42,522 nt of DNA from a virus. The DNA lies in IMG/VR virus record IMGVR_UViG_3300012209_000012, positions 1 through 42,522 of that record; one strand, 5' to 3'. Positions 6-33,999 of this stretch are shown one piece after another (position 1 is the stretch's first letter; each line of letters opens with the position of its first letter). Made by a program: the position numbers and the translations under genes. The notes below the pieces were generated by a model. It searched no databases. It was not told where the DNA came from and saw nothing but the letters and a program-made list of their open reading frames with translations.

Positions 6-233
6 GTGACGCGGGTGGCCAGGAAGAGCTCCGGGAAGCGGTCCAGGACCAGGCTGGCGGACATGTCGCTGCCGGCGGAGGAGCGGGGCCGCCGCGGGCA
101 GGGGAAGCGGCACCGCAAGGTGGTCGGCGGGACGCCGGCGGCGCAGATGGGTCACGCGACGGGCGGCAAGGCGCGCAAGAAGCAGCGGGAAGGCGAGGCC
201 AGGATGAGACGGAACCGGGGCGGTGAGGCATGA
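6..233 (+). CDS. Small basic protein, possibly 5'-truncated
   Basis: A 75-residue reading frame rich in Arg, Lys and Gly that ends in an ATGA overlap with the methyltransferase gene, which suggests translational coupling. The frame is also open to the left edge, so the real start may lie outside the window and the GTG used here is only the first one visible. I recognise no family; the charge suggests nucleic-acid binding, but composition alone in such GC-rich DNA is weak evidence. Confidence 0.4.
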   Translation: MTRVARKSSGKRSRTRLADMSLPAEERGRRGQGKRHRKVVGGTPAAQMGHATGGKARKKQREGEARMRRNRGGEA

Positions 234-1981
234 GCGCCGTCGTGCTCCGCGGCGACGCCCGGGCGCTCCCGCTGCCAGATGAATGCGTGGATTTGATCGT
301 GACCAGCCCGCCATTCTGGGCGCTCCGCAGCTACACCGACGGCGGCATCCACTATGACGGGCAGATCGGCAGCGAGCCGGCACCACGCGAGTACATTGAT
401 TCGCTGCTGGCCTGCACCCGGGAATGGGTCCGCGTCCTCAAGCCGTCCGGGTCGCTGTTCGTCGAGCTCGGCGACAAGTATGGCGCCAGCGGCCACGGAC
501 CCAGCCGCGGGAACGGCACCGGCCGCGGCCCGCAGGGAACGGCGCTGCGGCAGACCCGCGGGCCGATGGAGAAATCCTTGCTGGACCTGCCGCACCGGTA
601 CGTGATCCGCTGCATGGACGAGCTGGGTCTGATCCTGCGCGCGGAGATCGTGTGGCACCATGCGAACGGCTTGCCCGAATCCGTGACGGACCGGGTGAGG
701 CGGGCGCATTCGGCCGTGTTTCACCTGGTGCGGCAGCCGCGGTATTACGCCGCCGTCGACGCCATCCGCGAACCGCACACGGGCGGAACGCACGCCCGGC
801 GCAAGGACGGCCGGCACTCGCCCAAGGAGCAGGCGACCATCGAGAACGGGTTCCGGCGCGGCTACTTCCCGGAGAACCTCGAGAACCCGCTGGGGAAGCT
901 GCCGGGCAGCGTGTGGGACATCCACGAGGGCGAGTCCACGATCCGCCTCATCCTGCAGGCCGTAGCCGCTGACGCACTCACCATCGATGAAGCCGAACGC
1001 CTCATGAAAGGGATTCAGTGGACTGGATCGAACGGTTCAACGCCAGCATCGAACGCACCGACGGCTGCTGGCACTGGACCGGCTTCATCGACGACGAGGG
1101 CTACGGGCACCACCGCAGGACCCGCGACGGCCACCGGGCAGTCCACCGGCTCGCCTACGAGCTCTGGGTCGGACCCATTCCCGACGGATTCACTATCGAC
1201 CATCGCTGTCACACCCACGAGTGCGAGGGCAGCGGAAGGGGATGCCTCCACCGCCGGTGCGTCAACCCCGATCACCTCGAGCCTGTCACCATCGGTGAGA
1301 ACATCCGGCGAGGACGTGAGGCAACCAAGCCCGCCTGCGTCAACGGGCACGACTTCACACCCGAGAACACCCATGTCCGGGCCAACGGACACAGGGAATG
1401 CCGGGCCTGCATGCGAGTACGAGCACGGGCTTACCGGCGACGTCTGGTCAATACCTAGTCAGCCGCTGGTGGTGCCCGCGCACCTCGGCATAGACCATTT
1501 CGCCAGCTTTCCCATGGAGCTGCCCCGCCGCATCATCCTGGGGTGGTCGCCGCCGGGGATCTGCACCGCCTGCGGCGAAGGACGACGCCCGGTCAGCGAG
1601 CGCGTGACGCCGGGGATCTACCGCAGGACCGACAACGGCTGGCCGCTGTCTAACACGCAGCGGAAGGGCGACGGGCCATCTGGCAACGGGCTCAACGTGC
1701 AGCCGACTACCATCACCGGCTATGCGTGCGCCTGCCCGCAGCCTGACGCGCCCGTCCGCCCCGCCCTGATCGTCGACCCGTTCGGCGGCACCGGCACCAC
1801 CGCGCTCGTGGCCGCCATGCTCGGCCGCACGGGCGTCAGCGTGGACCGCTCGGCCGACTACTGCCGCCTGGCCCGGTGGCGCGTCAGCGACCCGGCCGAG
1901 CGCGCCAAGGCGCTGCAGGTGCCGAAGCCGCCGTCGGTGCCGGACGGCCAGGCGTCCCTGTTCGATGACCTTCCGGCCTGA
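230..1981 (+). CDS. DNA amino-methyltransferase (N4-cytosine/N6-adenine) with internal HNH-gene insertion
   Basis: Type II-style DNA methylase. The catalytic motif IV TSPPFW is at residues 25-30 and the SAM-binding motif FGGTGTT at residues 518-524. Catalytic before SAM-binding is the permuted order of beta-class amino-methyltransferases. The two halves of a familiar phage methylase are separated at residue about 232: the left side ends GSVWDI and the right side resumes GDVWSIPSQPL. Between them lie about 175 codons of Ser/Thr/Pro/Ala-rich sequence, which is the out-of-frame reading of an HNH gene. The frame stays open, so the protein could be made with a low-complexity insert, or it may be inactive. 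Likely role: modification of phage DNA against host restriction. Confidence 0.85.
   Translation: MSAVVLRGDARALPLPDECVDLIVTSPPFWALRSYTDGGIHYDGQIGSEPAPREYIDSLLACTREWVRVLKPSGSLFVELGDKYGASGHGPSRGNGTGRGPQGTALRQTRGPMEKSLLDLPHRYVIRCMDELGLILRAEIVWHHANGLPESVTDRVRRAHSAVFHLVRQPRYYAAVDAIREPHTGGTHARRKDGRHSPKEQATIENGFRRGYFPENLENPLGKLPGSVWDIHEGESTIRLILQAVAADALTIDEAERLMKGIQWTGSNGSTPASNAPTAAGTGPASSTTRATGTTAGPATATGQSTGSPTSSGSDPFPTDSLSTIAVTPTSARAAEGDASTAGASTPITSSLSPSVRTSGEDVRQPSPPASTGTTSHPRTPMSGPTDTGNAGPACEYEHGLTGDVWSIPSQPLVVPAHLGIDHFASFPMELPRRIILGWSPPGICTACGEGRRPVSERVTPGIYRRTDNGWPLSNTQRKGDGPSGNGLNVQPTTITGYACACPQPDAPVRPALIVDPFGGTGTTALVAAMLGRTGVSVDRSADYCRLARWRVSDPAERAKALQVPKPPSVPDGQASLFDDLPA
1018..1458 (+). CDS. 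HNH homing-type endonuclease nested in the methylase gene
   Basis: A 146-residue HNH nuclease in a different frame from the methylase that surrounds it. Visible signatures are GCWHWTG near the N-terminus, the HRLAYELWVG helix, the IDHRC catalytic His segment, CVNPDHLEPVT, and a C-terminal zinc-like cluster (CVNGHDFTPEN, CRACMR). GAAAGGG lies 6 nt before the GTG start. Its last residues overlap the DNA that encodes the resumed methylase motif VWSIP. The layout fits a free-standing homing endonuclease that invaded a conserved methylase motif. I see no group I intron core around it. Confidence 0.8.
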   Translation: MDWIERFNASIERTDGCWHWTGFIDDEGYGHHRRTRDGHRAVHRLAYELWVGPIPDGFTIDHRCHTHECEGSGRGCLHRRCVNPDHLEPVTIGENIRRGREATKPACVNGHDFTPENTHVRANGHRECRACMRVRARAYRRRLVNT

Positions 1982-2855: not shown

Positions 2856-3085
2856 TGACCGCAACGCTGACCGCAACCCGAAGGGCGGACCTGAGGCGAC
2901 CAGGACCGTCAAACCGGTCAGAAGTCGCAGGTCAGGGGGCCAGGTCTACTCCTGTCTGCCTGCGCCCAGGACTACGGATCAGAAGGCTGGGGGTTCGAGT
3001 CCCTCCGAGCGCGCTTCCCTGAACTGGGAGAATCCAGATCGGCCAAAGTCAGATGGTCATCTGTGACCGCAACGCTGACCGCAAC
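2856..3085. other. attP-like site: tRNA-Arg(ACG) 3'-half core with flanking integrase arm repeats
   Basis: The core (about 2970-3014) is the 3' half of a tRNA-Arg: anticodon loop CTACGGA, the 3' anticodon strand TCAGA, a T-arm with GGTTCGAGTCC, and acceptor GAGCGCGC. The upstream side lacks the matching TCTGA strand, so it is not a whole tRNA. The same 22-bp block, made of two tandem GACCGCAAC units, occurs at 2856-2877 and 3064-3085 on either side. Direct repeats flanking a tRNA-derived core are typical arm-type sites of a tyrosine integrase. Both arms on one molecule indicate attP rather than attL or attR. Confidence 0.8.
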
Positions 3086-3621
3086 GCTTCTGGGCCGTCG
3101 TTTTGCGCTCTGAGATCGCGGATCATCTCGCGGAGTTCTGCGCGGCTCATCCGCGGCGGCATCCCGTCGTTCTCGTACTCCAGGTTGCCCATCGTCTTTC
3201 GTATCTCCACGATGTGCTCCAGCAGCGGCAGGCCTGGCCTGAACCACTCGCCCTCAACGCGCAGCGCCTTGAACGCCCGGTGCGCGGCAGCCTCCTCCTG
3301 CCGGCCGCCGCCGTGGAACGCCATGAGGCTGAGCGGGCCGTACTCGCGGGCGAGGTAGGCCAGCCGGGAGGCGGTCGTGCGGGACGTGCCGATCTTGATC
3401 AGCCCATCTTCCCGCTGGACGTAGTAAACCGTCTCGGCCTGGCAGCGGGCGGCATCCTCCGCCCACTTCAGAGCGCGCCGGTAGTGGCAGTCGCACAGGA
3501 AGGTGTCGGCCGCCTCGTGCGGGGCGGGCTCGCCGCATGTCACCGTCATGAGGATGCCGTCACGGGTGCGCCGGTAGGCAGCGCAGGTACGTGCGCTGGC
3601 GGCGATGGCAGAATTACTCAC
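3049..3621 (-). CDS. GIY-YIG nuclease (T5orf172/MUG113-like), second paralogue
   Basis: A 190-residue paralogue of the nuclease at 1991-2632. The N-terminal zinc-like motif is CGEPA...CDCHYRRALKW; the nuclease part has VYYVQREDGLIKIGTS, an RLAYLAREYG helix, GGGRQEEAAAHRAF and GEWFRPGLPLLEHI. Its C-terminal ALRSALRS is simply the translation of the tandem arm repeat of attP, so the gene reads into the integrase-binding arm. The GTG start directly follows a two-hairpin leader that is shared with the nuclease at 37672. Confidence 0.8.
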   Translation of the reverse strand: MSNSAIAASARTCAAYRRTRDGILMTVTCGEPAPHEAADTFLCDCHYRRALKWAEDAARCQAETVYYVQREDGLIKIGTSRTTASRLAYLAREYGPLSLMAFHGGGRQEEAAAHRAFKALRVEGEWFRPGLPLLEHIVEIRKTMGNLEYENDGMPPRMSRAELREMIRDLRAQNDGPEALRSALRSQMTI

Positions 3622-4626: not shown

Positions 4627-4893
4627 TCAGCCGGGAATTCTCCTCTGAATCTCCTCTTCGGAGTACAGTCCGGTGTCCCGTAGCCATGTCCGGCGCACCT
4701 CTGCGGGCGCTTGCCAGCACACGTGTCCCGCATCCTCCGCCCGGGCACCGCAGTCTGCCACGCAGGTGCACGGGGAGCGTGCGCCAGCGCAATACCAGCA
4801 CGACGCGGGCGGTGACGCGGAAGCCCGTCCAGGCGGTGCAGCAGCAGGCTCATCGGGGCCATAGCTGGGCTGATAACCTGCGCCGTCTTTCAT
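4627..4893 (-). CDS. Small Cys-rich protein between duplicated integrase ends
   Basis: An 88-residue ORF whose ATG overlaps the integrase stop (ATGA). It has a Pro/Ala-rich N-terminus, then CWYCAGARSPCTCVADC, a cluster that could hold one or two zinc ions, and a short charged tail. Other frames here are also open. I prefer this one because of the ATGA overlap, the GAGAGGGA site before it, and the resemblance to neighbouring Cys-rich proteins. Function unknown. Confidence 0.5.
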   Translation of the reverse strand: MKDGAGYQPSYGPDEPAAAPPGRASASPPASCWYCAGARSPCTCVADCGARAEDAGHVCWQAPAEVRRTWLRDTGLYSEEEIQRRIPG

Positions 4894-6170
4894 GATTTCC
4901 CTCTCAGTCCCTCAATGATCGTGTCCATGGCGTCCGCCCCGGACCGGGGTACTTCTTCCAGCGCGTGCAGGTACATCTGGGTGGTGGACCCGTGGGCGTG
5001 CCGCAGCGTGGCCTGCACGGTCTTGAAGTCCACCCCGGCCGCCAGCATGTACGATGCGCAGGCGTGCCGCAGGTCATGCAGCCTGACGCCGGGTACCCGG
5101 GCGCGGGCGCACAGCCGCTCCCACGCCCGGTCCATGGTCCTGGGCTCGATCGCGGTGCCGAGGCCGGTGGTGAACACGAGGTCGAGGTCCGCCCACGCCC
5201 GGGCGGCCATGCGGGTCTTGCGCTGCTCCCGCTGCCACCTCATGAGTGCTTCTGCGGCCGTCTTGGGCAGGGCGACCGCGGTGGTCGACGCCTCGGATTT
5301 CAGCTCCTTGGCGACCAGCTTCCCCTTCCGCCGTCCCGTCTGCGGGTCGGGCTCGCCGCGGATCCGCTGCACCGACTGCCGCGGCGTCCACACCCGCCGC
5401 TCGAGGTCGAGGTCGGCCCACCGCATGCCGAGGCCCTCGCCGCGGCGGAACCCGAGCGTGAACGCGGCCAGCCAGTAGCACCACATCCGGTCGGCGGCCA
5501 TGGCGGCCAGCAGGGCGGACGCCTGCTCCGGCGTGATGGTGGGGCGCGCTTTCTTCTGCCGTTCCCGGGGCGGCTTGACCAGCGTCACCGCGTTGCGGTC
5601 CAGCCCGGCCGTCTCGTCCCTCAGCGCGTCGGCCAGGGCCTTGTGCAGGATGGCGCGGCAGTAGGCGACGGTCCGGGGTGACAGGAGCTTAGGGGGCGGC
5701 AGGGCGCGCTCTCCCTTGCGGAGCCTGCGGCGGGGCCGCCCGGACGGCTTGCGGCCGAGCTGGTGCTGCCATTCGCGGACCATCGGCGCATCCAGCTTGC
5801 GGAGCTTCACGTGCGCCAGGGTCGGCGCGCTATCGCCGATGATGTGGAGGGCGGCGTTGTCCCGGTAGGAGTCCATGGTGGAGGCGGCCATCTCCCCGGC
5901 GGCGACGTACTGCGGCAGGGTCACGTCAAGCCAGCGCGTCAGGTAGTCACCGACGGTCTGCTCCGGGTCCCTGGGCAGTCCCCGGGCCAGCCTGGCTTCG
6001 AGCTCGGCGCGTTTCGCCATGGCCTCCTTGCGGGTGCGGCCGTAGACGTAGCGGGCCCTGGGGTCGAGGGTGCCCTCGGGCGGCCAGGCGCGGGCGGTCC
6101 ACCGGCCGTCGCCGCGCTTCCACGGCTTGCCCTCTCGGTTGGGCCGCGCCCCGGCCGGCTTACCGGTCAC
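4890..6170 (-). CDS. int: Tyrosine-family phage integrase
   Basis: A 426-residue site-specific recombinase. It has an N-terminal arm-binding part (VYGRTRKEAMAKRAELEA), a core-binding domain (PEQTVGDYLTRWLD, then VREWQHQLG), and a catalytic domain with box I LGFRRGEGLGMRW, box II LHDLRHACASYML and nucleophile TTQMYLHA near residue 400. The GTG at 6170 is preferred because it overlaps the upstream stop (GTGA); the frame runs back to 6236 but would intrude into the neighbour. It should act at the attP-like site, whose core indicates tRNA-Arg(ACG) as the bacterial target. Confidence 0.93.
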   Translation of the reverse strand: MTGKPAGARPNREGKPWKRGDGRWTARAWPPEGTLDPRARYVYGRTRKEAMAKRAELEARLARGLPRDPEQTVGDYLTRWLDVTLPQYVAAGEMAASTMDSYRDNAALHIIGDSAPTLAHVKLRKLDAPMVREWQHQLGRKPSGRPRRRLRKGERALPPPKLLSPRTVAYCRAILHKALADALRDETAGLDRNAVTLVKPPRERQKKARPTITPEQASALLAAMAADRMWCYWLAAFTLGFRRGEGLGMRWADLDLERRVWTPRQSVQRIRGEPDPQTGRRKGKLVAKELKSEASTTAVALPKTAAEALMRWQREQRKTRMAARAWADLDLVFTTGLGTAIEPRTMDRAWERLCARARVPGVRLHDLRHACASYMLAAGVDFKTVQATLRHAHGSTTQMYLHALEEVPRSGADAMDTIIEGLRGKS

Positions 6171-6430
6171 GGCCGGGGATTGCCGGACAGCGCCATCTCG
6201 ATGCGCCAGAGCGCGTCTTCGGCCGCCTCGGCCCACCGGATGTGTGATTCGGGAGCGCCGCCGTCCTTGACCTCGGCGCGCGTGCCGGCCGCGAAGTCCC
6301 CTAGCGCCGCGGTCAGCACAAAGTAGTAATCGGGATCGTCTGACATGAGATCGAAAGTCACGAGTCGCTGACCGGTCGTAGCAGGTGCTTCCGTCTGGCT
6401 GACCTTCTGTGTGTCGTCCATGCCGGTCAT
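6167..6430 (-). CDS. Small acidic hypothetical protein
   Basis: An 87-residue protein with conserved-looking FDLMSDDPDYYFVLTAALGDFA and a helical C-terminus (IRWAEAAEDALWRIEMAL). The internal ATG at 6421 starts MDDTQKVS, nearly the same N-terminus and DNA as the next upstream gene, so that may be the true start. It overlaps the integrase start. Function unknown; the position suggests early or lysogenic expression. Confidence 0.6.
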   Translation of the reverse strand: MTGMDDTQKVSQTEAPATTGQRLVTFDLMSDDPDYYFVLTAALGDFAAGTRAEVKDGGAPESHIRWAEAAEDALWRIEMALSGNPRP

Positions 6431-6779: not shown

Positions 6780-7292
6780 ATGACTGACGCAGGTCCCGAG
6801 GGCATTGATGTAGGCCTCGAAGCCCTCCGCCTCTACACGCTCAAGGAGGTGGGGGACCTGTTCGGCTGCTCGGCCAAGACCATCGAGCGCCTGACCGCCG
6901 ACTGGGATGAGAACCCCGGTACCGGCCTGGAGTCCATCAAGATGGGCAAGCTGCGCAGGGTCACCGCGGAGGCCATCACCGTGTTCAAGAAGCGCCTGGT
7001 CGCCGATGAGCGGCACCGCGCCGAGGCCAGGACCGGTGCGGCCTTATGGGGATCGTCGCACTTCGCGGCAAGCTCGCGGCCGGGCGTGTCGCGGTCATCG
7101 ACGATGAGGACCGTGACCTTGTATCCCGCTACCACTGGCACGCATGGGAGCGCCGGCACGCTAACGGCCGCATCGAGGGTCCGTATGCAGCGGCGCACAT
7201 CTGCCTCGGCGGCGGCCGGTGTACGAGCATTTTCATGCACAAGCTCATTACCGGCTTGCCCGCGACCGATCACCGCAACGGTGACGGCCTAG
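6780..7292 (+). CDS. Excisionase/MerR-like HTH protein with run-on C-terminus
   Basis: Residues 1-90 look like an excisionase-type winged HTH: LYTLKEVGDLFGCSAKTIERL, a GKLRRVTAEAITVFKKRLV wing and strand, then a basic end. After about ARTGAALWG the frame runs through an HNH gene in another frame and becomes Ser/Thr/Ala-rich filler, so the original stop was probably lost when that gene arrived. As the first gene of the rightward operon, opposite the integrase, it is the best candidate recombination directionality factor or early regulator. Which role it plays is inference. Confidence 0.6.
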   Translation: MTDAGPEGIDVGLEALRLYTLKEVGDLFGCSAKTIERLTADWDENPGTGLESIKMGKLRRVTAEAITVFKKRLVADERHRAEARTGAALWGSSHFAASSRPGVSRSSTMRTVTLYPATTGTHGSAGTLTAASRVRMQRRTSASAAAGVRAFSCTSSLPACPRPITATVTA

Positions 7293-19854: not shown

Positions 19855-20031
19855 GTGAGCGAGCAGGATGCGGGGGCGGTGCACGCGGCGGGGGAGGCGG
19901 CGGCGCAGCAGCGGCAGGATCATTACCTGGCGAACATCTCCGGGCAGGGTAATCCTGCGGGGGATCCGGCGGGGGCGCCGTCGACGCAGATGCCGGATGC
20001 GCCGCCGCCGCCTGACCGGAGCACCACCTGA
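19855..20031 (+). CDS. Small Ala/Pro-rich protein
   Basis: 58 residues from GTG 19855: SEQDAGAVHAAGEAAAQQRQDHYLANISGQGNP, then a Pro-rich tail. It overlaps the next gene by one base. It lies just after the capsid gene, where small head proteins are common; no function assigned. Confidence 0.5.
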   Translation: MSEQDAGAVHAAGEAAAQQRQDHYLANISGQGNPAGDPAGAPSTQMPDAPPPPDRSTT

Positions 20032-21638
20032 TGGCGGGGATGACCGTGACGGTCCCGGATGACATCCCGACGGGGGTGACGGCGGAGGAGGCGGCCCGGC
20101 TGGCGACCCTGGCGCGGGGCGGTGACGTGCTCGAGCTGGGGGCGTGGTTCGGGTTCTCCACGGTGGTCCTGGCGCAGGCGGCCCGGCGGGTCACGTCGGT
20201 GGACTGGCACCGGGGGGATGCGGGGACGGCGGACTGGGACCGGGACGCTGGCCTGGGCGAGGCGGGGACGTGGGACGCGTACCGGGGAAACCTGGCCCGG
20301 TACGGGGTCGCGGCCAAGGTCGATGCGCGGCGGGGCCGGTTCGAGGACGTGCTGCCCGCCCTGGCCCGGGAGGGGCGGCTGTTCGACGGGGTGTTCCTGG
20401 ACGCGCAGCATGACGCGGCGGCGGTGGCGGCGGATCTGACGCTCGTCCTGCCGCTGGTCCGGCCGGGCGGGTGGGTGGCGTTCCACGACTACGGGCGGGG
20501 CGAGGCGACGGGCCACCCCGGGTGGGGGGTGACGGAGGTCGCGGACGCCTTCGGGGTCGCCGGGGTCACCGGTCACCTGGCGTGGGGCATCGTCCCCGGC
20601 CCCGCCGCGGCGGGCGGGGCCGCGGACCGGACGCTGACGATCGTCGGGATGCCCTACCAGGCGGACGGGTCCGGGTACCACCGGCTGTACCAGCCGTTCA
20701 GGCACCTGACCGCGAACTCGCGGCACGTGTTCGGCATACCGGCGCCGGGCGCCAGGCTGCCGCACCCGACCCCGGCGGACGTGGAGGACATCGACGTGCT
20801 GGTGTTCCAGCGGCCGACGTTCGCGCTGGGAACGCGGCTGTTCGACCGGCTCGGCGGGCACGTCGCCCGGGTGCATGAGACCGATGATGACCTGATCACC
20901 ACGGACACGTCGAACCTGCCGTTCACCACGGACCCGCGGGCGGCGGAGTCGGTGCGGTACTGCCTGCGCCGCGCGGAGATGGTGACCGTGTCCACGCCGT
21001 ACCTGGCGGACCTGTACGCCCCGTTCAATTCCAATATCGTGGTGCTGCCGAATTACGTGAAGGCGGGGCTGCTGGAGATGCCGCGCAAGCGCAGGGACCG
21101 GGTGACCATCGGGTGGCAGGGCGGCACGTCGCACCTGATCGACCTGTGCGTCATCCAGGACCCGCTCCGCGACGTCCTCGACGCGCACCCGGATGTGGAC
21201 ATGCACTGGATCGGGGTGGACTATTCGCCGATGCAGTGGATCAAGGCACCCTGGCTGCGGTCCCGGTGCCGGTTCACTCCCTGGGCGGATGACGTCGGTG
21301 ACTACTACAAGGCCATCGACTTCGACATCGCGATCGCGCCCCTGGCGGACATCCCTTTTAATAAATCGAAATCGTATTTGAAATGTTTGGAGGCGGCCGC
21401 CCGGGGGATCCCGGTCGTGGCGCAGGACTCCGAGCCGTACCGCGAGTTCGTCCGGGACGGGGAGACGGGGTACCTGGTCCGCACCCCGGAGCAGTGGCAG
21501 GCCCGGCTGACCGAGCTGATCAACGATGCGGCGGCGCGGGAGGAGATGGGCGCGAAGGCCAGGGCGCTGGCGGCCGGGTACACGATCCAGGAGCACTGGG
21601 TGCGCTGGGAGAAAGCCTATGAGGCCGCGGCTCGCTGA
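20031..21638 (+). CDS. SAM methyltransferase-glycosyltransferase fusion
   Basis: A 535-residue two-domain protein. Residues 1 to about 215 form a class I SAM methyltransferase (VLELGAWFGFSTVVLAQAA, SVDWHRGD, FDGVFLDAQHD, LVRPGGWVAFHDYG). Residues about 225-535 form a GT-B glycosyltransferase (ARVHETDDDLI, VSTPYLADLY, VTIGWQGGTSHLID, IAIAPLADIPFNKSKSYLKC, ARGIPVVAQDSEPYREFV). Phage glycosyltransferases encoded among structural genes are known to decorate virions; here the methyltransferase may cap or modify the glycan. About 30 bases near 21357 use A/T-rich codons unlike the rest. Confidence 0.88.
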   Translation: MAGMTVTVPDDIPTGVTAEEAARLATLARGGDVLELGAWFGFSTVVLAQAARRVTSVDWHRGDAGTADWDRDAGLGEAGTWDAYRGNLARYGVAAKVDARRGRFEDVLPALAREGRLFDGVFLDAQHDAAAVAADLTLVLPLVRPGGWVAFHDYGRGEATGHPGWGVTEVADAFGVAGVTGHLAWGIVPGPAAAGGAADRTLTIVGMPYQADGSGYHRLYQPFRHLTANSRHVFGIPAPGARLPHPTPADVEDIDVLVFQRPTFALGTRLFDRLGGHVARVHETDDDLITTDTSNLPFTTDPRAAESVRYCLRRAEMVTVSTPYLADLYAPFNSNIVVLPNYVKAGLLEMPRKRRDRVTIGWQGGTSHLIDLCVIQDPLRDVLDAHPDVDMHWIGVDYSPMQWIKAPWLRSRCRFTPWADDVGDYYKAIDFDIAIAPLADIPFNKSKSYLKCLEAAARGIPVVAQDSEPYREFVRDGETGYLVRTPEQWQARLTELINDAAAREEMGAKARALAAGYTIQEHWVRWEKAYEAAAR

Positions 21639-26143: not shown

Positions 26144-26169
26144 GCCGGTACCCCCAGGGTGCCCCAGCT
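26140..26169 (+). pseudogene. Fossil start of the connector gene
   Basis: Read from TTG 26140, which overlaps the upstream stop as TTGA, the sequence gives (M)[10 protein letters not shown]. The intact gene at 26834 begins MSRYPAGQPVT. The two copies differ in DNA (AGCCGGTACCCC against TCTCGCTATCCG) but encode the same SRYP, and they bracket the minus-strand HNH gene. Confidence 0.65.
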
Positions 26170-26776
26170 AGTCCGCTGCCTGGGCTCGCTTGCGTTCCCT
26201 GTAGCGCCGCTGGACCTCCGCGTTAGTTAGCCGGACGCGGCCGTCCCTCAAACGTGACCGGCGGTTGTTCGCCTGTTCAGTTGGCGTAGCCCAGCGGCAG
26301 TTCTCTGGCGAGTACGGACCATCGTTGTCGGGCCAGCGGTCCAGGGTCTTACCCGCCGGCCGTGGCCCCATGTCGGCGAGGAAGACCGCGAAGTCGTCCC
26401 ACTGGGGGCAGATCGTGATACCGCGGCCGCCGTAACGCTCGCGACCGGGGCGGTTCACGTCATTGACTCTCTGGCGCATCGCGCACCAGGAGATGTATGC
26501 CGGGCGGTATTCGGGATCGTGTGACATTCCGTGGGTGCTGGCCATCACGCGGACGCGCTCGGCAGTCACCTCGCGGTTGCGGCACCCGCAACTTGTTGAG
26601 AGGCCGTTCAGGAGATTGCCTGCACAGACTTCGCGTTCCGTGCCGCATTCGCAGCGGCAAAACCAGTAGGCAGCCATCTGGCCGCCGGGCTGGCGACGGC
26701 TAGCAGCGGGTGCGGTAACCGTCCAGCGGCCGAATGTCTCACCCGTGAGTTGCCGTTTTGATCCGTTCGCTCCCAT
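26168..26776 (-). CDS. HNH-like homing endonuclease on the opposite strand
   Basis: A 202-residue protein of a widespread phage family. [28 protein letters not shown] and [11 protein letters not shown] form an N-terminal recognition part. [31 protein letters not shown] and [29 protein letters not shown] form the nuclease part. TAGACT (26783-26788) lies 6 nt before the ATG: leaderless promoter. It is inserted between the repetitive protein gene and the connector gene, exactly at the connector start. Confidence 0.85.
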
Positions 26777-26833: not shown

Positions 26834-27730
26834 GTGTCTCGCTATCCGGCCGGCCAGCCAGTCACCATCCCGGTCACGGTCAGGCAGCGCAACGCGGACG
26901 GCACGTACAGCCTCGTCGACAGCACGCCCGTCATCGTCGTCAAGCTGGCCCAGGCCGACGGCACCATGCTCACCACCGGAACCTACAGCGCCCCCGCCCA
27001 TGACGGCCTCGGCCTGTACCACCAGGACATCCCGGCTGCCGATCTCACCGTCACCGGGCACTACCAGTGGGCCGCCACGACCACCGGAACCGGCGCAGGC
27101 GTCGCCTTCGGCGACTTTGACGTGTTCGACCCGTTCGAGACCGCGGTCCTGCCGCTGGGCGACGCGAAGGACACCCTGAACATCCCGCAGGCCACCACGA
27201 CGTTCGACAGCGAGATCCAGTCCTGGATCGCCACGATCGAGTCCAGCCTGGAGAAGGCCACCGGCGGCCCCCTGGTCAACCGGGTCATCACTGCCGAGCG
27301 CGCCGAGCTGCTGTCCGGGCAGACCGTGATCGCCGTCCGGCAGCGGCCCCTGGTCTCCGTCACCCAGGTCACCGGCGCCGGCGGGGCCCCGATCGACATC
27401 AGCGGCGGCCTGAAACTCGACGTCAACGCGGGACTCATCCGCAGGCCGCTCGGCTTCCCGTTCTACGGGCCGTTCTTCGCCTGGCTGCCCGAGGTGTACG
27501 TCACCTACGTCGCCGGGTGGGGCACTAGCGTTCCGGCGGCGTTCAATAGCTTCGCCCGGATCGTCCTGCAGAATCTCTGGGACGCCCAGCGCGGCCCCGC
27601 CGCCATGCCCATGGGAGGCGGGGAGATGGTGACCCCGCCAGGATTCGGTTTCGCCATCCCGAACCGGGCCGCCGAGCTCCTCAACGGCTCACTCGGAGGC
27701 GTGCCCTTTATCTCGGAAGCTTTTGTCTGA
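26834..27730 (+). CDS. Head-tail connector/adaptor protein
   Basis: 298 residues. The N-terminal 100 residues are beta-rich (VTIPVTVRQRNADGTYSLV, LYHQDIPAADLTVTGHYQW). The C-terminal 190 residues look like an Ad1/gp6-type connector: LGDAKDTLNIPQATTTFDSEIQSWIATIESSLEKATGG, PLVSVTQVTGAGG, PFFAWLPEVYVTYVAGWG and FARIVLQNLWDAQRG. It would sit under the portal and link head to tail. The first nine codons are duplicated upstream at 26140. Confidence 0.75.
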   Translation: MSRYPAGQPVTIPVTVRQRNADGTYSLVDSTPVIVVKLAQADGTMLTTGTYSAPAHDGLGLYHQDIPAADLTVTGHYQWAATTTGTGAGVAFGDFDVFDPFETAVLPLGDAKDTLNIPQATTTFDSEIQSWIATIESSLEKATGGPLVNRVITAERAELLSGQTVIAVRQRPLVSVTQVTGAGGAPIDISGGLKLDVNAGLIRRPLGFPFYGPFFAWLPEVYVTYVAGWGTSVPAAFNSFARIVLQNLWDAQRGPAAMPMGGGEMVTPPGFGFAIPNRAAELLNGSLGGVPFISEAFV

Positions 27731-28274
27731 CCAGCTGAGCCTGTCGTGAGCAGACGCGGCTGCAGAAGCGCTGCCGGTAGTCGCCGGGTTTGTAGGGCTG
27801 GCCGCAATGCTCACACTTCCGTTGCGCTATTGATCTTCTGCCGCGGGCGGCCTTTACCCGGCTGCAGATGCGGCAGTACCTGCCGCCATTACGGTACCGG
27901 CCGGTGTTCTCAGGCGTGTACTCATGATCCTGCGGGCAATGTGTGATCGCCTCGAAGGCTCTCCGGTTGTTCTCCTGCTGGGTGACAGGTTCCAGGTGAG
28001 CCGGATTCACGCACGATGTGACGCGGCACAGGTGATCCAGGTGCAGCCCTTCGGGGATCGGGCCGACAAGCAGGATGTAGGCCACCCGGTACGCCGCAAG
28101 AGGGCGACCCTCGTAGTACATCCACGGGTAACGGCCGTCCCGGCAGTAGCCCAGCCACAGCCAGCACGGGCCGAGTTCGGGACGGTATGCCGGGACCGGG
28201 CCGTTCTTGTTGACCTTCGGCCAGAAGCGCTCGGCGGGCGGGCGGGACGGTCTATATCGATACCGTTTAGGCAT
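27708..28274 (-). CDS. HNH homing endonuclease on the opposite strand
   Basis: A 188-residue protein in the same family as the nuclease at 1018: PCWLWLGYCRDGRYPW, AYRVAYILLVGPIPEGLHLDHLC, CVNPAHLEPVTQQENNRR, then zinc knuckles CPQDHEYTPENTG...CRICSRVK and CEHCGQPYKPGDYRQRFCSRVC. TAACAT (28281-28286) is 6 nt before the ATG. The 3' end overlaps the connector gene on the other strand. It separates connector and tail terminator genes. Confidence 0.88.
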   Translation of the reverse strand: MPKRYRYRPSRPPAERFWPKVNKNGPVPAYRPELGPCWLWLGYCRDGRYPWMYYEGRPLAAYRVAYILLVGPIPEGLHLDHLCRVTSCVNPAHLEPVTQQENNRRAFEAITHCPQDHEYTPENTGRYRNGGRYCRICSRVKAARGRRSIAQRKCEHCGQPYKPGDYRQRFCSRVCSRQAQLVRQKLPR

Positions 28275-29277: not shown

Positions 29278-29865
29278 CTACTCGCGCCACGTCTCGCCGC
29301 GAGTGATGCGGCCGATATTCGGGACGCTCACCCCGAAAGTCAGCGCGAGCGCACGCCGCGACTCGCCAGCCGCATAACGGCGGCGGATATCCCTGACGGC
29401 ATTCCAGGTGAGCTTCGCCGCTGCGCTCCGTTCGCCCCGGGCGTCAACGCCGTCCCTGACCTTATCCCGGGAATTTTCGGCTCTGGTGCCATAAGACAAG
29501 TTGACGAGGCGGTTATCGGATGTCCGGCCGGCCCCATGCCTAGCCTCCTGACCGTCCGGGCACGGGCCGAGGAATGCGCGAGTGACGAGCCAGTGCACAT
29601 CCCGGTACATGCGTTCACCGGCCCGGGTAAGGGACACCCTGAGATGCCCGTGCCGGTTCTTGGGTACGGGCCGCAGCAACTGGCCGCCGCGGATACCGGA
29701 CGCGGTGACCCGTGGCAGGCTCCGTACCCGGCCAAGGTCACTGACTTCGTAGAAGCTTTCCCAGCCGGGGACGGGAAGCCATCGCTCAGTAGGATCGATC
29801 ACAGCCGCACCTCCGATGCGGTCAGGTCCGGCCGTTGCGTTGGCTCGCGCGGCCGGACCGCTCAC
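29278..29865 (-). CDS. NUMOD4/HNH homing endonuclease on the opposite strand
   Basis: Up to 195 residues; a likelier start is GTG 29802 after GGAGGT, giving about 174. NUMOD4 motif: RWLPVPGWESFYEVSDLGRVRSL. HNH part: VHWLVTRAFLGPCPDGQEARHG and SDNRLVNLSYGTRAENSRD. The C-terminal HTH (LTWNAVRDIRRRYAAGESRRALALTFGVSVPNIGRI) is a NUMOD1/IENR-like recognition helix. TAAAAT (29874-29879, minus strand) gives it a promoter. It interrupts the start of the glycosyltransferase gene. Confidence 0.88.
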   Translation of the reverse strand: MSGPAARANATAGPDRIGGAAVIDPTERWLPVPGWESFYEVSDLGRVRSLPRVTASGIRGGQLLRPVPKNRHGHLRVSLTRAGERMYRDVHWLVTRAFLGPCPDGQEARHGAGRTSDNRLVNLSYGTRAENSRDKVRDGVDARGERSAAAKLTWNAVRDIRRRYAAGESRRALALTFGVSVPNIGRITRGETWRE

Positions 29866-29900: not shown

Positions 29901-30981
29901 ATGCGCTGGCTGGTTATCCACCCAGGGCCTTTAGCCCAACTTCAGTGTCGCCGATATGCATGTCGGATGGGTAGAAGCGCTGCGCGGCCTCGGCGAAGAG
30001 GTCATGGAATACAATCTCGACGCGCGGCTGCAGGTCTTCGACTCGGCGCTCATGCCCGAGACCGGGGCCGCACCCGACAGCGAAGGGCGCCGGCCGGCCC
30101 GCAAGGCGTTCACCACCGAGCAGGCCGTCGGGCTCGCCACAGGCGACCTGCTGCTCGGCGCGTGCTATAGATGGTGGCCAAGCGTCGTCCTGTGCGTGTC
30201 CGCGTTCTTCACCCCCGCGTCCGTGCTGGAGGTCATGCGGTCCCGCGGCCACACGATCGTGATGCTGTTCAGCGAGGCGCCGTACCAGGCCGGGCAGCAG
30301 CTTCAGATGGCGAAGTTCGCCGATATCAGCCTGGTCAACGACCCGGCTGGCATTGAGGCGTACCGGGCGGCCAGCCCGGTGGCGGAGTACATGCCGCATT
30401 CCTACCGCCCGTCGGTGCACTACCCGGCGCCTGCGGGGACGGAGCCGGAGTACGACCTGGCGTTCGTCGGCACCGGGTTCCCCAGCCGGGTCGCGTTCCT
30501 CGAGCAGATGGACCTGGCCGGGCTGCGGGTCGCGCTCGGCGGATTCTGGGGGCGCCTGGCCGCGGACTCGCCGCTGCGCGGGCACCTGCTGTCCCGCGAC
30601 GCCGACGCGGACGTGTGCGTGGACAACGCCGAGACGGCCGCCCTGTACCGGCGTGCGGCGTGCGGGATCAACTTCTACCGGCGCGAGGCGGAGCCGGACT
30701 GGGACGCGCAGGCATACGCGTGCGGGCCGCGGGAGATCGAGCAGGCGGCGTGCGGGCTGTGGTTCGCCCGCGACAGCAGGCCCGAATCGGACGAGCTCTT
30801 CCCCATGCTGCCCGCCTTCACCACCCCGGAAGAGGCATCCGGCCAGATCCGCTGGGCGCTCGCCCATCCAGATGAACGCGCGGAAGCTGCACTGAAGGCC
30901 CGCGCGGCCATCGCGGACCGGACGTTCACCAACGCGGCGAAGCGGCTGCTGTCGCTGCTCGGCAAACAACCACGGAGGTAG
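29901..30981 (+). CDS. CgeB-like glycosyltransferase with re-supplied, frameshifted 5' end
   Basis: The open frame is 29956-30981 (341 residues): GWVEALRGLGEEVMEYNLD, HTIVMLFSEAPYQAGQQLQM, ADISLVNDPAGIEAYRA, EYDLAFVGTGFPSRVAFLEQM, RRAACGINFYRRE, GPREIEQAACGLWFARD and LLSLLGK. This is a DUF3880/CgeB-type GT-B enzyme. A strong site GTGAGGAGGTGATG precedes ATG 29901 (MRWLVIHPGPL), but one base too many near 29931-29934 puts this start out of frame with PNFSVAD. Either ATG 29956 is used or the gene is damaged. It lies beside the major tail protein, so it probably glycosylates it. Confidence 0.8.
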
Positions 30982-30984
30982 CAA

Positions 30985-31419
30985 GTGAGCCGCGATCATG
31001 GCAGGAACGGCAGGGTCTATTTCGGGGTCACGCAGACCGCCGGGGTGTCGGCGGCGGCGTCGCCGCTGCCGTTCCAGGCGGCCTGGTCCGTCAACCAGGT
31101 CACGGACAAGTCGGAGGTCACTGCGTTCGGCGACCAGAACAAGGTGTACGTCGCGGGGCTCCCGGATTCCTCCGGGGACTTCTCCGGGTTCCTCGACGAC
31201 GCCTCGTCGCAGACGTTCGTCGCGGCGCTCGACGGGATCCCCCGCAACTTCTACCTGTACCCGAACGTCACCGCGTTCCCGAACAACTGGTACTGGTTCG
31301 GGCAGATCATCGCCGACGCGTCGGCGGACGGCGCGGTCGGCGGCCCCGCAACCTTCAAGGCCTCCTGGAGCGCGGCCACCGCAATCACGAGGTACACGCC
31401 ACTGGGTTTGGGCACCTAG
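30985..31419 (+). CDS. Major tail protein
   Basis: 144 residues, subunit of the tail tube: GRNGRVYFGVTQTAGVSAAA, WSVNQVTDKSEVTAFGDQNKVYVAGLPD, GDFSGFLDDASSQTFVAAL, FYLYPN and GPATFKASWSAATAI. This size and beta pattern (a TUBE fold) and the place before chaperones and tape measure are characteristic. GGAGG precedes the GTG. It follows the glycosyltransferase by only 3 nt. Confidence 0.8.
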   Translation: MSRDHGRNGRVYFGVTQTAGVSAAASPLPFQAAWSVNQVTDKSEVTAFGDQNKVYVAGLPDSSGDFSGFLDDASSQTFVAALDGIPRNFYLYPNVTAFPNNWYWFGQIIADASADGAVGGPATFKASWSAATAITRYTPLGLGT

Positions 31420-31571
31420 CCGGGCTGGCGGGGTCCGCTGCCGTTCTCCGCGCCGAGTCCCTTGCGGAGCAGGATCCGGACGGCGTCGGCGAGGGAAATC
31501 CCGTAGATGCCGGCGTAGCCCTGGATCTCGTTCCTCAGGTCCTCGTCGATCTCGAGGCGCAGCTTGGCCAT
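31416..31571 (-). CDS. Ribbon-helix-helix (CopG/Arc-type) regulator
   Basis: 51 residues from the ATG after AAAGGAGG. AKLRLEIDEDLRNEIQGYAG followed by ISLADAVRILLRKGL is a classic RHH fold: the beta strand KLRLEID contacts DNA and two helices dimerise. It is the second gene of the Ltp cassette. RHH proteins bind short tandem sites; three TGTACCC repeats lie over the cassette promoter at 32325-32353, so it is the obvious autoregulator. Its 3' end overlaps the major tail protein stop. Confidence 0.8.
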   Translation of the reverse strand: MAKLRLEIDEDLRNEIQGYAGIYGISLADAVRILLRKGLGAENGSGPRQPG

Positions 31572-31605
31572 CTGGCCCTCCTTTAGTTGCTGACGTGCCC
31601 GGGCT

Positions 31606-32310
31606 CTACAGGCCAACCTTGGCGACGGCATATTCCGCCTGCGCCTCGGTGAATCCCTCGCCATAACTGGAGGTCAGTTGCTCCAGCAGGCCCTGGCGGC
31701 TGAAGCCCTGACCGAGTGCCATGTAGCCCTTGGCGGACTCCATAGCCTGCTCGTACCAGTTGGGATGGAGGTAGGCAATGGCAAAGCTGGCGGTCTCTGC
31801 CGTGAAGCCCTCGCCATAGCTTGAGGTGAGCTGCTTGAACAGCCCGGACTTGCTGAAGCCCTGACCGAGGGACAGGTAACTCTGCGCGGATTCCACGGCC
31901 TGCTGCTGAGCAGCAGACATCACGGGAGCGGCTGGCGTGGCCACGGCGGGGGTGCTGGCCGAGGAGTCAGCAGGAGCAGGCGCGGATGAGGTGTTACTGG
32001 CTGCAGGGACCGCGGCGGGGTCGGCGGGGCAGTAACTGAACCCGTCGGAGATGGTGACGGCTGAGGTCGCGCAGGCGTAGCCGTTCTGGTCGGTGAACGA
32101 TGCGGGTGCCGAGGTGGCGGACGCGGTTGCCTTCGGCGCGGGACGGGTGCCGCCGGACGTGGCCGCGCCGGCGATTCCCGCGGCGGTGATCAGGCTGGCA
32201 AGGCCGATCGCGGGGAAGACGATCCAGTTGCGGACCCGGTGGCGCTTCCTGCGCGGCGGTTCTGCGGACTGGACGGGCTGGGTACTCGGGCTGGGATCGG
32301 TGTAGGTCAT
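31606..32310 (-). CDS. Membrane-anchored Ltp-family superinfection exclusion protein
   Basis: 234 residues. A basic cytosolic N-terminus (PPRRKRHRVRN) is followed by one transmembrane helix at about 28-50 (WIVFPAIGLASLITAAGIAGAA), a Ser/Ala/Pro-rich linker, and two Ltp repeats at about 138-183 and 189-232. Each repeat has the pattern ESAQSYLSLGQGFSKSGL / ESAKGYMALGQGFSRQGL followed by QLTSSYGEGFT. In Streptococcus phage TP-J34 the Ltp lipoprotein blocks DNA injection, and it is reported to target tape measure protein. Here it is anchored by a helix instead of a lipobox, is antisense to the late operon, and is therefore probably expressed in lysogens. Confidence 0.88.
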   Translation of the reverse strand: MTYTDPSPSTQPVQSAEPPRRKRHRVRNWIVFPAIGLASLITAAGIAGAATSGGTRPAPKATASATSAPASFTDQNGYACATSAVTISDGFSYCPADPAAVPAASNTSSAPAPADSSASTPAVATPAAPVMSAAQQQAVESAQSYLSLGQGFSKSGLFKQLTSSYGEGFTAETASFAIAYLHPNWYEQAMESAKGYMALGQGFSRQGLLEQLTSSYGEGFTEAQAEYAVAKVGL

Positions 32311-32324
32311 TTTTGCTCCCTTTC

Positions 32325-32362
32325 TGTACCCGGAATGTACCCGCCGTGTACCCAGCTGTCAA
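32325..32362 (-). promoter_or_regulatory. Canonical promoter with three tandem operator repeats (Ltp/RHH cassette)
   Basis: Minus strand TTGACA (32357-32362), 17-bp spacer, TACATT (32334-32339): the best sigma-70/SigA-type promoter in the window. TGTACCC (plus strand) occurs at 32325-32331, 32336-32342 and 32347-32353, an exact 11-bp period that covers the -10 and spacer. One helical turn between repeats fits cooperative RHH dimers. AGGGAG precedes the ATG at 32310. Confidence 0.85.
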
Positions 32363-32392: not shown

Positions 32393-32863
32393 ATGGCTGA
32401 TGCCGCGACGGAGCTGGAGGCGCTCGCGTTCCGGCTGCGCCGCCTCGGGGACGGCGGCCTGGTCCGGGAGCTGACCGAGGCGATGCGCCGCGCCGCAGGC
32501 CAGGTGCCGGACGAGATACGCGCCGGGCTGGTGCCAGAGTCACCGAAGCTGCCCAACCGGTACGCCGCCGAGCTGGACGCCGACGTGCGGATCGGCGTCA
32601 ACGTCCGCACCACTGGCAGCGACCCCGGCGTGTCCGTCACCGGCACCACGCGCAGCGGGCGGGCCCGCAAGCTCCGCCGCCTCGACGCGGGCCGGCTCAC
32701 CCATCCCGTCTACGGCAACCGCGAGGTGTGGCGCACGCAGGAGGAGCCGTCCGTGCAACCCGGGTGGTTCACCGGCCCCGCCCGGGACGCCGAACCCCGC
32801 GTCCGCGCCGAGATCGAGCAGGTGCTGCGGGACATCGAAGCAAAGGAGATGCGCGCCCCTTGA
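32393..32863 (+). CDS. Tail-completion/minor tail protein (HK97 gp10-like)
   Basis: A 156-residue protein: LEALAFRLRRLGDGGLVRELTEAMRRAAGQVPDEIRAGL, shown here as two helices, then RSGRARKLRRLDAGRLTHPVYGNREVWRTQ and WFTGPARDAEPRVRAEIEQVLRDIEAK. The long helices with LTHPVYGNR...WFTGP are typical of tail-completion proteins near the major tail gene. GGGAGG precedes the ATG. The TGA overlaps the next start (TTGA). Confidence 0.75.
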   Translation: MADAATELEALAFRLRRLGDGGLVRELTEAMRRAAGQVPDEIRAGLVPESPKLPNRYAAELDADVRIGVNVRTTGSDPGVSVTGTTRSGRARKLRRLDAGRLTHPVYGNREVWRTQEEPSVQPGWFTGPARDAEPRVRAEIEQVLRDIEAKEMRAP

Positions 32864-33288
32864 AAGTGACAGTGGCCGGCGAGACGTTCGATTACGACGG
32901 CACGAAGCAGCCCATGTCCGAGGCGCTGTGGATTGAGGACGTGTACAAGCGGCGGTACGCCGAATGGCAGTCCGACCTGGAGGCCGGGTCCGCGAAGGCG
33001 CTGTGCATGCTCGCCTGCCTCATCTGGCGCCGCGATGGCCGCAACGTGGACACCGCCTACGCCGATCTCCTCGACGGCACGACGGACTTCGACCTCAACG
33101 AGATGCTCCAGTCGATGGTCGCGGCCGCGCAGGCCGCGCAGACCGCGCAGGAGGAGGCCGCCGCGGCGGGCCCTACGACCCCGGAGCCGTCGTCGGCCCC
33201 GGATGGCACACATTTGATCGCAACCGGTACATCGGGGCGTTCTCGGAACGCCTCGGGATCCGGCCGTGGGAAATCGACGAAAACCTGA
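32860..33288 (+). CDS. Tail assembly chaperone (G-type product)
   Basis: About 142 residues from TTG 32860 (TTGA overlap, GGAG upstream) or GTG 32866: VTVAGETFDYDGTKQPMSEALWIEDVYKRRYAEWQSDLEAGSAKALCMLACLIWRR is helix-rich, followed by TAYADLLDGTTDFDLNEML. This matches G-type tail chaperones placed before the tape measure gene. A fraction of ribosomes should shift at 33168-33174 to make the longer product. The last about 40 residues here are Ser/Gly/Thr-rich. Confidence 0.8.
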   Translation: MKVTVAGETFDYDGTKQPMSEALWIEDVYKRRYAEWQSDLEAGSAKALCMLACLIWRRDGRNVDTAYADLLDGTTDFDLNEMLQSMVAAAQAAQTAQEEAAAAGPTTPEPSSAPDGTHLIATGTSGRSRNASGSGRGKSTKT

Positions 33289-33347
33289 GCGTCGCCGACT
33301 TCGAGGCGTTGCTGGACTATATTGAAGAGTCAAGCCGCAGTGACTGA
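32860..33347 (+). CDS. Tail assembly chaperone, -1 frameshift (G-T) product
   Basis: The same start as the G product, then a -1 shift at the canonical heptamer G-GGC-CCT (33168-33174). The reading continues GPYDPGAVVGPGWHTFDRNRYIG, AFSERLGIRPWEIDENLSVADFEALLDYIEESSRSD, which is a folded T-type tail. G and G-T chaperones coat the tape measure during tail assembly. The heptamer, the frame relation and the downstream acidic helix agree with the well-known arrangement of siphoviruses. Confidence 0.82.
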
Positions 33348-33441: not shown

Positions 33442-33999
33442 GTGACAGAGCCTAATCCTGCGGCTAAACCTAAGCGTGACCGGCGGCAGTACAACCGCGA
33501 ATGGCTTGAGGCAAACCGCGAGAGAGCCCGCGCCCGGAATCGTAAGCGATATGCAGCTGACGGCCGGCGGCAGCGCGAGTATGCGCGTGAGTATTACGCG
33601 GAGAACCGCGAGAAGATCGCGGCGCAGCGGAAGCTTCGCCGCAAGCCTGATGATCCGCGCGCATCGCGCAGGCAGCACCTCAAGCTCGCGCACGGCCTTG
33701 ATGAGGCAGCGTGGCAGGCAATCTGGGACGTACAGGGCGGCTGCTGTTACCTGTGCGGTGACGCTCTTGATTCGGTGACGACCCATGTTGAGCACTATCA
33801 CGGCTGCGCTGCGCACTCGCCCAAGCGATCCTGCTCATTCTGCCGGCGCGGACTTGCCTGTCAGGCGTGCAACCTGATTATCGGCCGCACCGGCGACGAA
33901 CCCGCCCTTCCCAGGATCATCGCTGACAACCTCGAGCGGGCCAACGCTGACGTCGCAGCACGTCAGGCGGTGATGCCGCAACACATAACACTCTTCTAG
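33442..33999 (+). CDS. Endonuclease VII-like homing nuclease
   Basis: A 185-residue protein. Residues 1-75 are basic and helical (KRDRRQYNREWLEANRERARARN, YAREYYAENREKIAAQRKLRRK). Residues 80-165 are the recombination endonuclease VII domain: WQAIWDVQGGCCYLCGDAL, a VEHYHGC His segment, CRRGLACQACNLIIG and LPRIIADNLERA, ending ITLF. It is inserted between tail chaperone and tape measure genes on the sense strand. It is a paralogue of the genes at 18148 and 37672. Confidence 0.9.
   Translation: MTEPNPAAKPKRDRRQYNREWLEANRERARARNRKRYAADGRRQREYAREYYAENREKIAAQRKLRRKPDDPRASRRQHLKLAHGLDEAAWQAIWDVQGGCCYLCGDALDSVTTHVEHYHGCAAHSPKRSCSFCRRGLACQACNLIIGRTGDEPALPRIIADNLERANADVAARQAVMPQHITLF

Follow-up and report, generated by a model that had tools for sequence, protein, structure and literature searches.

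The Ltp protein of TP-J34, a temperate phage of Streptococcus thermophilus, is among the closest known counterparts of the protein considered here (PF07553; 4EQQ). The prophage produces it, and it blocks DNA injection; its gene, which belongs to the lysogeny module, runs opposite to most other phage genes and is argued by the authors of the study to be a moron (PMC3952083). Two Ltp repeats lie outside a lipid membrane anchor, with a spacer. Ltp without the lipid anchor acts on more phages, and other exclusion proteins are held by an N-terminal membrane helix (PMC3952083). The tape-measure protein is the reported target of TP-J34 Ltp (Bebeacua 2013, cited through PMC11480721). Gordonia phages, too, have lipoproteins annotated as Ltp or 'superinfection exclusion', for example gp76 of Sour.

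The DNA analysed here, referred to as the window, is a stretch of 42,522 nucleotides from the uncultivated soil phage IMGVR_UViG_3300012209_000012, in which a minus-strand gene pair and its promoter (31416-32362) lie reversed among tail genes. Like the TP-J34 gene, the first of the pair belongs to a temperate phage, opposes most other phage genes and encodes two Ltp repeats set off by a spacer from a membrane anchor; unlike it, the anchor is an N-terminal hydrophobic segment, the neighbours are tail genes, and the unit adds an RHH gene and three operator boxes. The Gordonia lipoproteins share the Ltp repeats (~51% identity over 90 residues), whereas the annotated genes flanking Sour gp76 include none named as RHH. 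The RHH protein has the predicted fold of the Arc/CopG/AmrZ repressors. Members of that family bind operators repeated at intervals of roughly one helical turn; the window differs in having three GGTAC-type boxes, as putative RHH sites, on a moron promoter. With phage morons the cassette shares an own promoter, insertion between genes and a lower GC3 of the cargo, but it brings an apparent repressor of its own and a conserved operator, and the cargo is exchanged inside the cassette. No description of such cassettes was found in the open-access literature searched. The parts are ordinary and the assembly is unusual: a moron that brings an RHH gene and a matching operator and whose surface cargo can be exchanged.

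Results

The features of the window are listed in Table 1. At the left border the stop of the RHH gene overlaps that of the major tail protein gene on the opposite strand. In relatives free of a cassette at this junction the phrog_11991 gene follows the major tail protein gene after ~8-60 bp: the distance is ~8 bp in both L018 and L025 and 12 bp in L015, and in L012 the matches lie 60 bp apart. In the window the gap is 973 bp. The cassette is inserted, as morons are, between genes that are adjacent in these relatives, and it has a predicted promoter of its own that is conserved in relatives; a simple scan of the cassette region for a terminator, another mark of morons, was empty. GC3 is 0.81 in the Ltp gene and 0.91-0.94 in the RHH gene and the neighbours, so that, judged by composition, the cargo may have joined the phage later than the RHH gene did. 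A tyrosine integrase gene at 4890-6236 indicates that the window phage is temperate.

Table 1. Features of the window, with positions counted from its first nucleotide.
Feature	Position	Strand	Basis or remark
N6/N4 DNA methylase	230-1981	+	
T5orf172 and MUG113 (GIY-YIG-like) proteins	1991-2632, 3049-3621	-	
Methyltransferase-glycosyltransferase fusion	20031-21638	+	
HNH-like gene	26168-26776	-	by eye, no Pfam match
HNH_3 gene	27708-28274	-	Pfam
NUMOD4 + HNH_3 gene	29278-29865	-	Pfam
Large protein without PHROG match	29956-30981	+	conserved before major tail protein in relatives
Major tail protein gene	30985-31419	+	left insertion border; phrog_10528
RHH (Arc/CopG-like) regulator, 51 aa	31416-31571	-	ATG at 31571; fold model, profiles
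RBS of RHH gene, AAAGGAGGG	31577-31585	-	sequence
Membrane-anchored double-Ltp protein, 234 aa	31606-32310	-	PF07553, PHROG, fold match
RBS of Ltp gene, GAAAGGGAG	32316-32324	-	sequence
Operator box 3, across predicted transcription start (~32327, inferred)	32325-32331	-	sequence, relatives
-10 hexamer TACATT	32334-32339	-	sequence
Operator box 2, overlapping -10 hexamer	32336-32342	-	sequence, relatives
Operator box 1, GGGTACA on minus strand, within promoter spacer	32347-32353	-	sequence, relatives
-35 hexamer TTGACA	32357-32362	-	sequence
Late gene, phrog_11991	32393-32863	+	right insertion border
Endonuclease VII family gene	33442-33999	+	

The preliminary description had placed the cassette two genes before the tape measure gene and had taken this nearness as a hint at the target of the Ltp protein. 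Neither point was upheld. At least three genes intervene (32393-32863, the likely tail-assembly chaperone pair at 32866-33288/33347 and the endonuclease at 33442-33999), and the slot directly before the tape measure gene holds unrelated cargo in eight relatives; since unrelated cargo sits closer to that gene, the nearness argument fails. The likely chaperone pair (32866-33347, plus strand) appears to be made with a frameshift: one frame stays open to 33288, and what looks like a conserved continuation extends in a different frame as far as 33347. The late genes are also interrupted by several endonuclease-like genes, which are possibly homing agents that make late junctions into insertion slots.

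The double-Ltp protein consists of a basic N-terminus, a hydrophobic segment at about residues 30-48, a linker carrying the two-Cys motif FTDxNGxxC...YCP, and two PF07553 repeats (~138-182 and ~184-231). The whole protein scores 110 bits with PF07553 (E 6e-32, cut-off 23.2), which places it in the family. There is no lipobox cysteine, the sole cysteines, C79 and C93, both being in the linker; the protein is therefore membrane-anchored, or possibly cleaved, and not a lipoprotein. Its best PHROG matches are 'superinfection exclusion' families (E 1e-36). By fold it matches TP-J34 Ltp (4eqq) best (E 0.02), a result obtained from a single-sequence model that is poor outside the repeats. PADLOC matches to SIR2 models covered only ~30 residues and were judged to be chance. 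Ltp cargo at the major-tail-protein slot was seen only in the window phage and in the near-identical record G001. An anchored double-Ltp protein and an RHH gene, both antisense to the late operon, had been proposed, and the open reading frames, the PF07553 repeats and the predicted RHH fold bear this out.

In the AlphaFold model of the RHH protein an extended N-terminus is followed by two helices, the strand being unformed in the single chain. RHH proteins (VapB, Arc, AmrZ, CopG) make up nearly all of its best Foldseek matches among solved structures, with E values that are weak because the protein is so small. Model and matches together point to the strand-helix-helix fold. The protein reaches no Pfam cut-off, RHH_1 included, the best profile being RelB at 15.7 against 22.4 bits; a relative of class a passes RHH_1 (28.8 against 20.5). 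Identity to other RHH classes is only 31-41%, and no relatives of the protein turned up among 50,697 isolated phage records.

Within the 2.2 kb examined there is a single sigma-70-like match, TTGACA-17-TACATT, which runs from 32362 to 32334 on the minus strand (shuffle mean 0.2). Copies of TGTACCC begin at 32325, 32336 and 32347 and so repeat every 11 bp exactly; no further triple 7-mer with this period occurs elsewhere in the window, and 0 of 60 window shuffles gave one. The pattern scan and the shuffles thus confirm the promoter under three repeats noted earlier. Wherever whole records were scanned the operator is present in single copy per genome; it is therefore not a genome-wide repressor site, and that candidate was rejected.

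When GTAC boxes at 11 bp were sought in related loci, the same promoter-operator was found before reversed genes elsewhere. Scanning 2.9 million viral contigs with the pattern TTG-N7-GGTAC-N6-GGTAC-NNT-NNN-GGTA returned 16 stretches, 11 of them with an RHH gene on the same strand no more than 1.5 kb further downstream. A looser operator pattern returned many unrelated contigs with GTAC repeats and without RHH, and was left out of the statistics. Among 26 relatives chosen by homology of the neighbouring late genes, blind to operator and RHH, 7 had both elements and 19 had neither (Fisher p 1.5e-6); these loci are related and not independent, so the strength of the co-occurrence is below what p-values imply.

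The cassettes occupy three kinds of late-operon junction, with differing genes beside the operator and RHH: between the major tail protein gene and the next gene (window, L056 and, judged from gene order, L046 and L052), between the chaperone and tape measure genes (L010 with its identical copy L012, L013, L015, L018, L023, L025, L043 and L044), and after the g26834/g28304 genes (L011, L050 and, by its neighbours, L111). Every one lies between late genes and opposes late transcription. The suggested search for the cassette elsewhere showed promoter-operator and RHH in related soil phages, with other cargo, and found nothing of the kind in isolated phages; the Ltp-RHH unit that had been proposed as a defence module is one member of a family in which the cargo is exchanged.

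Several further loci were observed around these searches. A sequence search also brought up RHH genes in L105 and L106; these lack an operator and seem to represent another setting. In L072 and L088, contigs not matched to this phage group, the operator stands directly 5' of a short gene that matches the RHH profile (L072, triple GGTAC operator, 872-1010). In L048 (43% GC) a triple GGTAC operator at 6872-6950 precedes a short RHH-like gene without Pfam support. L049 (8905-8931), L055 (8906-8941) and L054 (5162-5197) have triple GTAC-type sites with promoter-like hexamers and no RHH of this family; they could be other systems or chance.

Across 14 cassettes operator identity follows RHH identity (Mantel r 0.63, p 1e-4) and does not correlate with the cargo. 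Within class a, whose six cassettes have six unrelated first genes, mean identities are 84% for the operator, 81% for RHH and 30% for the cargo; between RHH classes they are 69%, 39% and 32%. The third box also differs by class, being GGTATC with class a (6/6) and GGTACAA with class b (4/4). Operator and RHH could instead be co-inherited through linkage or shared ancestry; the cargo sits between them, however, so simple linkage should have kept the cargo too. That the RHH protein reads the triple operator is, on these comparisons, well supported indirectly, and the self-regulation proposed earlier gains support from the co-occurrence and co-variation of the two elements.

By raw count, a membrane segment or lipobox is encoded somewhere in the unit in 13 of 14 cassettes. 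L111, found by RHH sequence alone, shares the anchor of the window protein (RVRNW[IV]VFPAIGL; 57% over 47 aa, E 6e-11), behind which come a domain that matches DUF4352 at 39.9 bits (cut-off 25.9) and then the RHH gene; its operator is out of view because the contig starts inside the gene. L010 and L023 have a more distant anchor and the two-Cys linker motif in common with the window protein, and other ectodomains: that of L010 has no Pfam match, and that of L023, with a weak match to MmpS5 (E 0.14), is possibly MmpS-like. The sister cargo is diverse, comprising DUF4352, ectodomains without a family match and small lipoproteins. L004 encodes a two-repeat Ltp protein, an RHH gene and a lipoprotein, and has no GGTAC operator; a TGTATCC-like 11-bp triple considered as its operator was not significant, as 190 of 2000 shuffles reach it.

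Discussion

The reading we favour, with moderate confidence, is that of an RHH-autorepressed moron whose Ltp cargo probably serves superinfection exclusion. The cassette, which sits in reverse orientation between a pair of tail genes, would be an independently transcribed moron of a temperate phage, with a promoter that would drive the surface protein gene and then the RHH gene behind it. RHH dimers probably bind the three boxes, one helical turn apart, within the promoter spacer, over the -10 hexamer and across the transcription start; so bound, RHH would shut its own promoter and keep the surface protein low and steady in the lysogen. The double-Ltp ectodomain would probably act like TP-J34 Ltp and stall the entry of DNA injected by incoming phages. 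Among relatives the operator and the RHH gene stay together and the cargo is swapped. Exclusion is plausibly the likeliest use of the window protein by analogy, because TP-J34 Ltp acts in the prophage state and the window phage has an integrase.

The same autorepressed moron may carry an Ltp protein that alters the lysogen surface otherwise, by wall binding, adhesion or in stress, with no exclusion. Such a use, which we consider rather unlikely, would suit the diversity of the sister cargo, from DUF4352 and unassigned proteins to small lipoproteins, and Ltp proteins are also carried by bacterial plasmids, so the domain alone is no proof of exclusion. The best PHROG and fold matches, superinfection exclusion families and TP-J34 Ltp, argue against it, as does the injection block by the tested family member (PMC3952083). 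A toxin-antitoxin pair with RHH as the antitoxin is barely credible: the nearest sequence profiles are indeed the RelB and VapB antitoxins, but the adjoining cargo is unrelated between cassettes and matches no toxin family, for which reason a type II system was rejected, and 51 aa leaves hardly any toxin-binding tail.

Morons are often linked to lysogeny control, and the boxes might accordingly be targets of a host factor or of the phage's immunity repressor, RHH acting elsewhere. We hold this to be improbable, given one site per scanned genome, an operator type that follows the RHH class, and the constant co-occurrence of operator and RHH in independently fetched relatives. Still less probable is a lysis-lysogeny device in which RHH also controls the late operon by a roadblock or antisense transcription; all cassettes do lie between late genes and oppose their transcription, but 19 of 26 relatives lack the cassette and the junction varies among relatives.

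Returning to the autorepressed moron, the family as a whole suggests, on a balance only slightly in its favour, a moron platform. In this platform a fixed three-box operator and an RHH repressor would let uncultivated phages, whose hosts are probably actinobacteria, trade surface proteins at several junctions of the late operon; entire ectodomains (Ltp, DUF4352 and others) would be swapped on a shared membrane anchor, and RHH would keep new cargo tolerable. If this is true, the signature of operator and RHH would be a search key for unknown phage surface or defence genes, and any gene beside the pair would be a candidate superinfection-exclusion or lysogenic-conversion protein. The built-in repressor would then explain how new surface genes are taken up by a phage without harm.
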